A DNA stretch of 64,000 nucleotides. It comes from Fulvia fulva. Its lineage: Eukaryota > Ascomycota > Dothideomycetes > Mycosphaerellales > Mycosphaerellaceae. A program made the position numbers and the translations under genes. The stretch spans positions 3,534,001 to 3,598,000 of the forward strand of contig NC_063017.1 of NCBI RefSeq assembly GCF_020509005.1, in the 5' to 3' direction. Under the pieces are notes generated by a model, which saw only the letters and a program-made list of their open reading frames with translations, was not told the origin of the DNA and did not search any database. Position 1 is the first letter of the stretch. Every line of letters begins with the position of its first letter. Of the stretch, positions 1,000 to 56,330 are shown piece by piece.

Positions 1000-1154
1000 T
1001 CAGTGTGGCTGTCGGCTGCCAGCTACAGCTCTTTCCCATTTCAAAATCCTGTTCGCACATGTTGCCCGCTACCTCGCTACAACGTGCCGGAGGGCACTAA
1101 TCAAAAGATACATATACATTCAAATTTCACGCTTACTCATCAGCAAGCACGATC

Positions 1155-1205
1155 GTAAGTTCCGCGTCACAATCATGCTTTGAGCATCATCTAACATGTT
1201 TCCAG
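1155..1205 (+). other. Spliceosomal-type intron in acceptor stem of tRNA-His
   Basis: 51 nt, GTAAGT at the 5' end, TCTAAC branch-like site, ends TTTCCAG. It separates GATC from ACG of the 7-bp acceptor strand. Confidence 0.75.
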
Positions 1206-1224
1206 ACGTAGTGTAGTGGTTATC

Positions 1225-1276
1225 GTGAGTTATCTCGTAAGATCGTGTTTCTCGAGCTCGCCTAACAGCAAATCAG
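1225..1276 (+). other. Spliceosomal-type intron in D arm of tRNA-His
   Basis: 52 nt, GTGAGT at the 5' end, CCTAAC branch-like site, ends AAATCAG. Removal joins GGTTATC to ACG and closes the D stem. Confidence 0.75.
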
Positions 1277-1290
1277 ACGTCTCGTTGTGG

Positions 1291-1313
1291 AACGTACATC
1301 GTTATCACAGCCT
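1291..1313 (+). other. Canonical-position tRNA intron (37/38) of tRNA-His
   Basis: About 23 nt between base 37 (G) and base 38 (C) of the anticodon loop. It contains CAC, complementary to anticodon GTG, as expected for a tRNA intron cut by the splicing endonuclease. Confidence 0.7.
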
Positions 1314-1326
1314 CCGAGGAGGTCCC

Positions 1327-1378
1327 GTAAGTTTGCACCTGTGGTCAATGATAAGCCGTCGTACTAACAACACCACAG
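1327..1378 (+). other. Spliceosomal-type intron at the variable loop / T stem of tRNA-His
   Basis: 52 nt, GTAAGT at the 5' end, a perfect TACTAAC branch sequence at 1362-1368, ends CACAG. Removal rebuilds CCCTG of the T stem. Confidence 0.75.
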
Positions 1379-1401
1379 CTGTTCGATCCAGGGTGTGGTC
1401 A

Positions 1402-2354
1402 TTCAAATAACTTTCAATGAACTGCTTAATCTTTTGGTCTGCTGTCGGAAGAGATGTCGGTGTTGGAAGTGGTTGCCCGTCTTTTGGTGAAATCTGAGTA
1501 TTATGGCCGCGGTATCTGACTAAAATTTATCATTGGGAATGCAATGCAATACGAATGGCTTGATCTAATTGACGAGGCTGCAAAGTTTTGTGAAGGTTGT
1601 AACGATTCACGCCGAGATATGTGACGTCGAAGATGGGCGGTATAGCATAGTGGAGATCTTAGTAGCCTTGCTGCCTTCGTTGCTTTCTAGCTTCTACGGC
1701 TCGCTTGAAGTTTTGTACCTCTTTGACATAGACAAGGACATGCTGAACATGTCTGGCCACCATGCTTAGTGCATTGGCTCATAGTGCCAAACAGGTATGG
1801 TGAGATGGTATATCGCAGATCCTGTGCATTAGTAAGGCAGACATCAGCACTCTTTAGCACTGCAGCGTAGCTTCGAACCACAGCATCGAACGCCTACGTT
1901 GCATTAGATGCATACCCCGAAGCACCAACGGTACAGCATCTTGCGATGGGAGCTCGCCATGTCAGTTCGTAGGAAGATCTGTATAAGATGATGTTGAAAC
2001 TTCCCTCCGTTTCGGGATAACAAAGACTTTGGCTTCAACGTTCAAGTCGCAATGTCATTCGCGTCCCGTGAGCTTGGCAATCAGGTGCTTCGGCCACCCT
2101 ACGATGACTTTGACACTCAAACGTGGAGCATTGCAGTCTAGATGGATCGTGAGCGATCTGCACATATCTGTGAAGAACTTACAGATCGATCCTCGCGTAC
2201 ACGGCGACGCACACGAAGACACAGTCATAGGAATGAGTACTGTCCCATCTATACACCTATACCCTGCCATCATCCACACTCAGAGTCCTCCTTTCCAGCT
2301 GAACAAATTCCTCCACCGACCGCCCACGGACCGTACAGGCTTCGAGGGCTTCTC
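1402..2354. other. No gene seen
   Basis: Only short overlapping ORFs on both strands with no recognisable motif. It holds the putative Pol III T run at 1432-1435 and the downstream flank of the minus-strand AIM6-like gene. Confidence 0.6.
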
Positions 2355-29194: not shown

Positions 29195-29292
29195 CCACGT
29201 GGTTCTCGAGTATGGCTAACACCCTTCTGTTTGTAGGTGGCTGGGATGGAGAGGGGGATGGATTGGTGATCGAAGGGGGTTTGGCCTTGAAG

Positions 29293-29306
29293 TATTTACA
29301 TCTACT
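29293..29306. repeat. LINE target-site duplication, 5' copy
   Basis: TATTTACATCTACT, identical to 31582-31595 on the other side of the LINE. Confidence 0.85.
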
Positions 29307-31407
29307 CCCCGAGGCCAAGGCGCGTCTACTGGCTAGCAAGTTCTTCCCACCCCCAGTCGAGGCTGATCTAAGCGACATAAACAGCTCTACTCCCCTAGCC
29401 CCTAGCATCGCGGTCCAACAGGAGGTGTCCGAGGGAGAAGTTACCGCTGTGCTGAGGAAGTTGCCGGCGAAGAAAGCCCCGGGGCCGGATGGGATCCCAA
29501 ACGAGCTACTAAAGAAGTGTAGAGATCAACTAGCCCCAGCAGTTGCAGCGATCTTCAACGCCTGCCTACAGACCGGATACCACCCGATAGCTTTTAAACA
29601 ATCGACGACAGTGGTCCTACGCAAGCCGCAGAAGGAAGACTATACGCAGGTGAAGTCGTACCGCCCAATTGCGCTCCTTAACACTCTTGGGAAGGCGCTT
29701 GAGAAGCTGGTTGCAACGAGACTCTCCGAGGCGGCAGAGGAACACTCCCTACTCCCGGACACCCAGATGGGTGCGCGCCCACAGCGATCGACGCTATCCG
29801 CGATGGAACTTATCACCTCTCAGGTAAAGGCCATCTGGTATAAGAATAGGGACAAGGTGGCTTCCTTACTTAGCCTAGACATATCGGGAGCCTTCGACTA
29901 CGTGTCACACCCGCGGCTTCTCTACATCCTAAGGTCGAAAGGACTCCCTGAGTGGCTTGTCAACTTCGTACGGTCCTACCTCCAAAACCGCAGTACGTCG
30001 ATCCTGGTCGGCCAGTACAGAAGCCCATTTCAAGCAGTCCACACTGGAATCCCGCAAGGCTCAACGCTAGCACCTATTCTGTTCCTCTTCTTTATGGCGA
30101 CGCTGCTCCCAGCCCTAGAATCCCAGAACACCGCTGCGAGCGGCTTCGTAGACGACACAAACATCCTAGCGTGGTCTTCCTCGACTGAGGAGAACTGTAG
30201 GCTACTAGAAGAGAAGCACAAGATCTGCGAGGACTGGGCTAGGAGGCACGGGGCTCGGTTTGCCCCAGAAAAGTACAATCTGATACACTTTACGCGCCGG
30301 CCACGGTTCCACAATATGCAAGCTTCTATCCAGATACAGGGGCACACGACTAACCCGGCAAATCAGCTCAGGATCCTCGGACTATGGGTGGACCCGGCGC
30401 TACGGTGGAGGAAGCACGTACAGGCAATATTACGGAAAGCTGAACAGAATATGGCATCATGCCAGAGGCTCACTGCGTCCACATGGGGGGCGGACTTCCG
30501 GCAGTCACGACTTCTATATACGGCTATTGTACGGCCAGTCCTTACCTATGGCAGCCAAGTGTGGTCCTTAGGCGAGAGGGCCTGCCCATCGAAGGGACTC
30601 GTCGCGCCGCTAGCGAAGATCCAAAACCAATGCCTAAGGAAGGTCACCGGGGCATATAAGTCGACACCAACGAGGATGCTTGAGCACGAGACCGCTATAC
30701 CGCCGATCGACCTATACATCCAGGGACTACGGACCTCCTACTTAGGCAAGTCGGCACAGTACCCAGTACAGAAGGTCATCGCTAGTGCAGTCGCAAGGGC
30801 CCGCGAATCAGTACCAGCGCATAAGGGCATTCGACCCGGAAACGAGCCGAACTACCGGGCAAGGGACGAACAGCTAGCAACACAATGGGAAGGTGAGAAA
30901 TCGTTTGTAGAGCAACTATGGAAAGAGAGGTGGAACAACCAGGTTGTAGGGCATAGTGGACGCCCTCAGCCAGCGGGACAACCTAAGGAATGGTCAGCTA
31001 CAAAATCCGCGGTCAAGCACCCCCCGAAGCTCATCCACTACCGCCTTACGAGGGCACAGAGTAGCATAGCAACCCAACTGCGAAGCGAACACATCGGCCT
31101 CCAGGGGTACCTATCATGGAGGAAGGTCCCAGGATACACGAATACTAGCTGCCCCTGCGGCTATCGCTCCCAGAACGTACGGCACGCACTCCTCGTCTGT
31201 CCGAGGTGGTCGCTAGGAAGGGGGGAGTGGATGGCAAAGGCGAGGAACCGGACGATTGGGGCACTTCTTAACAACGCTGAAGACCTACGGCGCATTACGA
31301 ACTGGATACTAGAGAAGGGCTGGCTAGAACAGTACCGCCTAGTAGGAGCAGTGCAGGAAGAGAGGACACGACGCAGCGCGACGAGACCGGCTAGGAGCGG
31401 GGGCTAA
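29307..31407 (+). CDS. LINE reverse transcriptase, N-terminally truncated, about 699 aa
   Basis: Reverse transcriptase blocks in order: KKAPGPDGIPNELLKKC, SYRPIALLNTLGKALEKL, LSLDISGAFDYVSHPRLLY (catalytic Asp), GIPQGSTLAPILFLFFM, and the catalytic FVDDTNILAW. The thumb region follows (YTAIVRPVLTYGSQVWSLG). The C-terminus has the fungal LINE zinc-like motif CPCGYRSQNVRHALLVCPRW. No TDGS-type RNase H motif is visible between the thumb and this motif, where many Tad-clade elements carry RNase H. The ATG at 29212 belongs to host DNA upstream of the insertion, so any protein begun there would be a host-LINE chimera; the true ORF begins further 5' in a full-length copy. Not mobile by itself. Confidence 0.9.
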
Positions 31408-55527: not shown

Positions 55528-56123
55528 GGTGAGCCCGGGAAAACAGGCGGGCCTGGTACATATCATGAGATCAACGATGCACAACAAGATACCCACGACA
55601 CAAGTCGTCACTTGATCAAGATTATCGCTTCTCTCTGGGTTCTCTCTTTGTCACCTGCTCCTGCCTTAGCTCGGCTACTCACTTGACGACGGCCTGACTG
55701 ATGCCTCGTGCCTTCCTCCGCAGCTCGGCTTGATGGTGTTGGCCACGTGCTCCAAGGTATCACAGGCTCGGGGGCCAGCTACTTATAGCTCCTCCTTCTC
55801 TTCTTCCTTTCTCACCACGACATCAACCTTCAGGCTCACTGACGACAAGCTTGGCTGGCCTCCCGGAGCCTTTTGCAGACGCAGGCCAGCCAGGCATCAC
55901 ACCCACCCTCTCACAACCATCCGCGCAACACCACTGCAAAGACAAGAACCACAGGAGTGACACAACAGGTAACGCCATGGCTACTCAGATCACTTCCTAC
56001 CCGCAACCGACCTACGACGACGACTACTACAGGGTCCAGCGAGTGGTCCTCGCCGCTTGAGTACGGTGATGGGGAGTCGTATGCCCTTCAAGCAGGACAT
56101 TTCTGTTTGAACGATGTTTAGCC
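55528..56123. other. Non-coding stretch with a possible truncated gene start
   Basis: A pyrimidine-rich leader at 55780-55970 and ATG 55978 open MATQITSYPQPTYDDDYYR and then stop at 56060. It looks like a promoter and first exon whose continuation has been replaced by the rDNA remnant. Confidence 0.4.
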
Positions 56124-56330
56124 ACGCCGATGCTGCCGATTGATTGGCTCAGTGAGGCCTTCAGGCTGGTCTAAGGAGATCGGCAACGATAACCCATGGC
56201 CTGGTGAGCTGGTCAGACTCGGTCATTTGGAGGAAGTAAAAGTCGTAACAAGGCCTTTGCAGGTGAAACTGCAGAGGGATCATTGCTGAGCGAGGGCTCA
56301 CGCCCGACCTTTAACCATGAGGCTCACTGA
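56124..56330 (+). rRNA. Diverged 18S rRNA 3' end plus ITS1-like start (rDNA remnant)
   Basis: 56141-56286 follows the 3' end of fungal 18S: TTGATTGGCTCAGTGAGGCC, GGTCATTTGGAGGAAGTAAA, AAGTCGTAACAAGG and GGATCATT. The ITS1-like part GCTGAGCGAGGGCTCACGCC continues to CCCGACC at about 56310. Within the most conserved 60 nt there are about a dozen differences from the usual fungal sequence, nearly all transitions in both directions. 5.8S is not found downstream. A dead rDNA fragment, not a functional rRNA. Confidence 0.8.

Follow-up and report, generated by a model that had tools for sequence, protein, structure and literature searches.

The split tRNA-His gene and its surroundings

The window, i.e. 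the whole stretch of DNA that was analysed, comprises 64,000 nucleotides of the genome of Fulvia fulva (Cladosporium fulvum), a leaf-mould fungus (contig NC_063017.1, positions 3,534,001 to 3,598,000). Close to its start lies a sequence that reads as a split gene for tRNA-His(GTG), named copy 1 in the following (Table 1). A 73-nt tRNA-His(GTG) with exon lengths of 4 + 19 + 14 + 13 + 23 nt is obtained after removal of three inserts of 51-52 nt and of a 23-nt intron at 37/38. With an intron allowed in the anticodon loop only, ARAGORN called the joined product tRNA-His(gtg) with all stems paired. In the 96 nt that are left once the 51/52-nt inserts are out, it likewise identified tRNA-His(gtg) and placed the 23-nt intron at 37/38. 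The anticodon loop TTGTGGC contains GTG and T33, and the T-loop TTCGATCC fits TTCRANYC. Within the canonical intron, AACG and CGTT are able to pair, both by eye and in the computed fold. In tRNA-His, G-1 is added post-transcriptionally and the discriminator is A73. A73 is present here, and the base at -1 is C in both copies of the gene that were found, i.e. G-1 is not encoded.

An earlier note had described this locus as a 73-nt tRNA-His with paired stems in five exons, split by three inserts with GTAAGT/GTGAGT starts, CTAAC branch sites and CAG ends. The sequence of the window bears the inserts out, and the product with its stems could be given exact coordinates. The number of exons, however, holds only if the tRNA intron at 37/38 is counted as a fourth insert. 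On the unspliced window, neither ARAGORN nor the Rfam tRNA model reported a tRNA; annotation with such tools would therefore overlook the gene.

Table 1. Coordinates of the two tRNA-His genes and of the elements of copy 1 (positions in the window, except for copy 2).
Feature	Position	Strand	Description
tRNA-His(GTG) gene, copy 1	1151-1401	+	251 bp, five exons
TATA-like ATATA	1112-1116	+	35-39 bp upstream of copy 1
Exon 1	1151-1154	+	GATC, tRNA positions 1-4
Spliceosomal-type intron 1	1155-1205	+	51 nt, GTAAGT..TCTAAC..CAG; absent from the matching site of copy 2
Exon 2	1206-1224	+	ACGTAGTGTAGTGGTTATC; remaining acceptor 5' strand plus the bulk of the D arm, up to 23 (counting back from 37)
Box A	1209-1219	+	TAGTGTAGTGG; uninterrupted, judged by the commonly known consensus
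Spliceosomal-type intron 2	1225-1276	+	52 nt, GTGAGT..CCTAAC..CAG; matching site occupied in copy 2 (53 nt), interior diverged
Exon 3	1277-1290	+	ACGTCTCGTTGTGG; end of D stem, anticodon stem, anticodon GTG, G37
Canonical tRNA intron	1291-1313	+	23 nt, at the 37/38 site; of the kind cut by the tRNA endonuclease
Exon 4	1314-1326	+	CCGAGGAGGTCCC; positions 38-50: anticodon stem 3' strand, variable loop, T stem nt 1-2
Spliceosomal-type intron 3	1327-1378	+	52 nt, GTAAGT..ACTAAC..CAG; absent from the matching site of copy 2
Exon 5	1379-1401	+	CTGTTCGATCCAGGGTGTGGTCA; positions 51-73: remaining T arm, acceptor 3' strand, discriminator A73
Box B core	1381-1389	+	GTTCGATCC; uninterrupted, judged by the commonly known consensus
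First downstream T4 run	1432-1435	+	30 nt past the gene; perhaps a weak terminator for Pol III
tRNA-His gene, copy 2	C6:4922337-4922491	-	sole relative found in a search with the copy 1 gene

Two further features of the window were noted on the forward strand. Positions 56119-56277 match the 3' end of 18S rRNA as a fragment (Rfam, 64.3 bits); by eye it runs into ITS1-like sequence with mismatches and then into a T9 run, and it is perhaps a stray piece of rDNA. An open frame of 731 aa at 29212-31407 resembles, by eye, a LINE-type reverse transcriptase.

A second tRNA-His gene and a class of split tRNA genes

Copy 2 lies 1.39 Mb from copy 1, and the joined products are identical in 73/73 letters. 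It lacks the inserts at 4/5 and 50/51 (introns 1 and 3 of copy 1) exactly, and it carries a 53-nt insert GTGAGT..CCCTAAC..ACAG at 23/24, the site of intron 2. Its canonical 37/38 intron measures 29 nt; the AACG..CGTT of copy 1 is extended to AACGGA..TCCGTT, and both canonical introns end in ACAGCCT. Approximately 26 nt of the 3' flank are still alike. The core identity of intron 2 between the copies is 0.41 versus 0.55 (sd 0.06) among unrelated introns, with no residual similarity in the interior. The exons have thus been frozen while the shared intron diverged freely, which points to selection on the spliced tRNA-His product.

No intact tRNA-His was found in the assembly of 67.17 Mb (67,169,167 bases, 14 contigs) by a non-exhaustive search with the Rfam model, ARAGORN, two patterns and BLAST. 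The Rfam tRNA model was applied genome-wide to the best 63 of 1234 candidates and gave 28 matches, 22 of them above the cut-off. None of these was called His by ARAGORN, and L025, L026, L030, L031 and L032 gave no unspliced call. A D-arm pattern with three mismatches allowed recovered both known His genes as well as the tRNA-like loci L033 and L036, in which no GTG anticodon was seen. A pattern for the contiguous 5' half of tRNA-His (two mismatches) matched 18 places, compared to 39 with the reversed control, and yielded no intact tRNA-His; the best place showed no tRNA by eye when its surroundings were read, and the other 17 were judged from the matched letters. The only match of BLAST with the 73-nt product was the half of copy 2 that is contiguous over 36 nt. 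With the mature tRNA-Asp as query it gave no match, although three Asp genes are present. BLAST with a mature sequence hence misses genes with short exons, and a blank result is not itself proof that intact genes are absent. Within these limits, the search for another tRNA-His(GTG) gene proposed in the earlier note led to a single one, itself with a spliceosomal-type intron at the shared site.

Further split tRNA genes were found with a finder which removes combinations of GT..branch..AG inserts before ARAGORN tests for a tRNA. Two patterns of a T loop with T5 gave 99 and 78 places (71 and 35 with the reversed-pattern controls). All places of the first pattern, ten of approx. 37 new ones from the second, chosen as tRNA-3'-end-like, and the Rfam matches were examined. 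In total, 25 split tRNA genes with 48 spliceosomal-type inserts were resolved, namely two for His, three each for Thr(AGT), Asp, Arg(ACG) and Lys(CTT), two for Phe, five for Glu(CTC) and one each for Ile(AAT), Val(CAC), Ser(AGA) and Thr(TGT). One of the Glu copies (L120) was entered into this set by hand. The reading of introns in the tRNA-His gene is supported by 23 further tRNA genes of like architecture. One insert is present in 7 genes, two in 13 and three in 5, at positions spread from after tRNA position 4 to after position 60, and 22/25 genes contain the canonical 37/38 intron in addition. The joined products are identical within the Thr, Asp, Arg, Phe, Lys and Glu families, except for L120, which is one base off. 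Paralogues with equal product nevertheless carry unequal numbers of inserts: three and one for His, two and one for Thr, three and two for Phe, two and one for Arg and three, two and two for Lys.

The number of 25 is a lower bound, as loci without a clean resolution were left out. These are Leu(AAG) L109, which has one insert only with a 53-nt loop intron and was not recovered in a later scan, Pro(CGG) L066 (one scan only), Thr(CGT) L090, and L033 (two alternatives), together with L023, L026, L031, L032, L036, L080, L103, L104 and L115, which by eye resemble split tRNAs and gave no clear call. Unspliced ARAGORN calls with scores of about 100-109 and loop introns of 51-78 nt were deemed unreliable and not counted; L005 (at 213), L006, L059 and L080 were ambiguous. 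Twelve genes read as intact (Cys, Val-AAC, Ser-AGA, Arg-CCG, four Ala, Gly-GCC, Leu-TAA, Thr-CGT and Pro-TGG), so not all tRNA genes are split.

Some other loci deserve mention. In the split tRNA candidates L031 (C13, ~188874) and L032 (C6, ~1252016), the T loop itself seems to be interrupted by a GTAAG..AG insert; L031 reads by eye as Thr(TGT) with two inserts, which the finder did not confirm. Three tRNA-like 3' ends lie within 1.4 kb at L105 (C11:1847349-1848740); these may be split genes in a small cluster. L017-L022 (on C1, C2, C4, C5, C9 and C12) are six tRNA-like genes with flanking DNA identical to that of L018 over 398-1274 bases, i.e. tRNA-like sequence on a dispersed repeat, which ARAGORN called Trp or Gly depending on the settings.

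Character of the inserts and alternative readings

The 48 inserts have a length of 50-62 nt with a median of 53.5 nt, with the finder set to accept 42-110 nt at discovery and, for the final reading, 40-79 nt. The mean intron is given as 80 bp in the accessible part of the genome paper (PMC9453070). G is found at +5 in 47/48 inserts. The 3' ends are CAG (33), TAG (9) and AAG (6), and the branch motifs are CTAAC (31), CTGAC (8), CTAAT (4), CTGAT (2) and three others, all of the form YTRAY. These signals are partly built in, since a donor-like start and a branch motif not more than 36 nt from the end were required at discovery, and GT, AG and YTRAY in the final reading. The branch-like A of the last YTRAY is located 10-12 nt from the intron end in 44/48 inserts, and this narrow distance was not a requirement of the finder. 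As the finder considered GT..AG inserts only, inserts with other borders are missing from the list.

Empty sites are a more independent test because there the exon letters by themselves give the borders. GT..AG was among the 1-4 fitting placements in 8/8 cases of presence and absence between paralogues within this one genome, and in three of them it was the sole placement; these cases were picked by hand, six being placed in one test and the remaining two in another. His introns 1 and 3 each have a single fitting placement, and it is GT..AG. By these signals and borders, the inserts read as putative U2-type spliceosomal introns.

At shared sites of paralogues, 8/20 intron pairs exceeded the 95th percentile of core identity between unrelated introns (0.64), with a maximum of 0.90. 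For introns of unrelated tRNAs, the mean core identity was 0.55 by gapped alignment without a shuffled baseline. On this measure some shared-site introns are recognisably of common descent, and the remainder, including those of His, are not. The site 53/54 beside box B is common to unrelated tRNAs (Arg and Phe; L041, L087, L048, L047 and L112) and is perhaps preferred or selectively tolerated.

The reading of the tRNA-His gene was assembled by eye from raw sequence with freely chosen inserts, and a tRNA-like product might arise by chance in this way. The window scan, however, started from 27 T-loop-like sites (16 on the forward and 11 on the reverse strand) and ended with one tRNA, which was copy 1. 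When the DNA upstream of 23 intron-split loci was dinucleotide-shuffled 40 times each, 0/920 tRNA calls were obtained, while 22 of these 23 loci scored 104 or higher unshuffled (the exception is, by inference, Leu(AAG) L109). Together with the exact empty sites in the paralogue, this rules out a chance reading, the probability of which is practically nil. It is also highly improbable that the inserts are ectopic tRNA introns which the tRNA endonuclease cuts at bulge-helix-bulge motifs, with GT..AG being coincidental. The same tRNA-His gene does contain a canonical endonuclease intron, and the sites 25/26, 30/31 and 53/54 are also among the archaeal non-canonical intron sites in the accessible portion of PMC4090602. 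Yet bulge-helix-bulge pairing was not enriched at the 48 insert junctions: the full 4-bp central helix (shift of at most 2) occurred in 4/48 versus a control mean of 3.0, and 60/200 controls reached or exceeded 4 in this test, which had no positive control. Moreover, GT, G at +5, YTRAY at a nearly fixed distance and AG are no endonuclease signals, and this reading is left unsupported. A decayed pseudogene, with the true tRNA-His missed, unassembled or imported, is very unlikely. A diverged intact tRNA-His could escape the non-exhaustive genome searches, and the blank result with Asp illustrates this. Against it stand the 73/73 exon letters kept by both copies next to a diverged shared intron, the 3' flank that is still alike and the identical joined products of the other families. 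BLAST and the two patterns gave no intact gene, and BLAST was able to pick up a contiguous half.

The split genes might instead be transcribed by RNA polymerase II, so that splicing would take place on a capped RNA, from which the tRNA is excised afterwards; the product and the need for the spliceosome would be unchanged. Recruitment of the spliceosome is normally coupled to Pol II. Introns are found inside box A (after 9, 10, 11, 14, 15 and 18) in Thr, Asp, Phe, Arg, Ile and Val genes, and such introns are awkward for TFIIIC. In addition, depletion of T runs in the introns was not significant: TTTT occurs in 2/46 introns compared to a shuffle mean of 4.0, and 96/500 shuffles were equally low. 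The three introns of copy 1 contain no TTTT, and neither do 13 putative mRNA-type introns of the window. The His genes have T4 runs only downstream, 30 nt (copy 1) and 27 nt (copy 2) past the gene. On the other side, boxes A and B are uninterrupted in both His genes. A TATA-like element at -60..-21 is present in 12/25 genes versus 2/103 control windows further upstream (Fisher p 1.6e-8, for a motif picked after the flanks had been seen). Runs of T5 or longer and then GC follow within 50 nt after 18/25 genes (by eye), as after U6, though this is largely built in, as most genes were found via patterns requiring T5. Introns after position 53 end with AG right before TTCGA; hence, their last letter takes the place of the G in GTTCGA, which leaves box B readable at the DNA level. 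The U6 match and 18 5S matches in the genome contain no intron, so the split pattern is not general among Pol III genes. Overall, transcription of tRNA-His by Pol III is considered likely and a Pol II precursor rather unlikely.

Proposed processing, known systems and meaning

Positions 1151-1401 very probably represent a working nuclear tRNA-His(GUG) gene with three U2-type spliceosomal introns and one tRNA intron, and it would be one of at least 25 such genes. Maturation of their precursors probably depends on both the spliceosome and the tRNA endonuclease. Transcription would be driven by the intact A and B boxes, aided by the upstream TATA-like element, and most likely be carried out by RNA polymerase III. 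The nuclear spliceosome would then take out introns 1-3 and join the acceptor, D and T arms, as suggested by the splice signals and the exact empty sites. The tRNA endonuclease and RNase P require a folded tRNA body. Since the acceptor, D and T arms are not helices until the spliceosomal introns are gone, the spliceosome is expected to act first. After that, the cloverleaf would fold, RNase P and RNase Z would trim the ends, and the endonuclease and a ligase would excise the 23-nt intron at 37/38 in line with their general substrate rules. Finally, G-1 would be added opposite A73, as for other eukaryotic tRNA-His.

The literature searched, which included few subscription papers and no bioRxiv, contained no description of tRNA genes with spliceosomal introns. 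U6 snRNA is transcribed by Pol III and has mRNA-type introns in fission yeast and other fungi. As in U6 snRNA genes, a small structured RNA is interrupted here by a normal spliceosomal intron. In contrast to U6, the host is a tRNA, at least 25 genes are concerned and as many as three introns fall within a single 73-nt RNA; the U6 match of C. fulvum is intronless. Gain of spliceosomal introns is also a feature of introner-like elements, which van der Burgt 2012 reportedly described for fungal protein genes. These elements are linked to C. fulvum and its relatives, and spliceosomal intron gain in fungi, in this very lineage, would be the point in common. Such elements are marked by near-identical intron copies in unrelated genes; the introns of different tRNAs have the average core identity of 0.55 (without a shuffled baseline) given above.

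Fungal U3 snoRNA genes are similar in that a small structured RNA has canonical splice sites and intron presence varies between paralogues, as stated in the accessible part of a study from 2017 (PMC5832005). There, 133/138 U3 introns are located in the 5' half, whereas the tRNA introns of C. fulvum are spread over positions 4 to 60. U6 was named as the nearest precedent in the earlier note, and it keeps this place alongside U3. With canonical eukaryotic tRNA introns, the genes share the 37/38 intron itself; unlike these, copy 1 has three extra inserts elsewhere, with GT, branch and AG signals. Introns outside 37/38, sometimes several per gene and also in the D and T arms, are described for Cyanidioschyzon merolae, nucleomorphs and Crenarchaeota in the accessible parts of PMC3978253 and PMC4090602. 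The introns of C. fulvum are ectopic and multiple as well. According to the same excerpts, however, the endonuclease cuts archaeal and C. merolae introns at bulge-helix-bulge motifs (for many nucleomorph introns no motif is defined), and bulge-helix-bulge pairing is not enriched in C. fulvum. The word tRNA is absent from the accessible main text of the C. fulvum Race 5 genome paper (Zaccaron et al. 2022, PMC9453070). The occurrence of spliceosomal introns in small structured RNAs such as fungal U6 and U3 is known; the novel case would be the spliceosome as an essential maker of tRNA.

A 2026 review treats tRNA splicing and mRNA splicing as separate worlds in its accessible part (PMC13149111). 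If the present reading is true, the spliceosome is able to serve tRNA, and both splicing systems act on one precursor; this would hold for numerous genes, with as many as three spliceosomal introns in a 73-nt RNA. This raises the question of how the spliceosome is recruited to apparent Pol III transcripts. Identical tRNAs with differing intron sets in one genome would also be a natural system for the study of intron gain. As ARAGORN and the Rfam model missed the tRNA-His gene, tRNA numbers may be underestimated in fungi of this kind. For His, Phe and Asp, with one anticodon each, only intron-split genes were found in these non-exhaustive searches. It is reasonable, if less than secure, to suppose that the spliceosome is obligatory for tRNA processing in C. 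fulvum, and perhaps in its relatives, with Pol III pre-tRNAs as routine substrates and at least His, Phe and Asp decoding dependent on splicing. Translation would then be wired directly to splicing activity.
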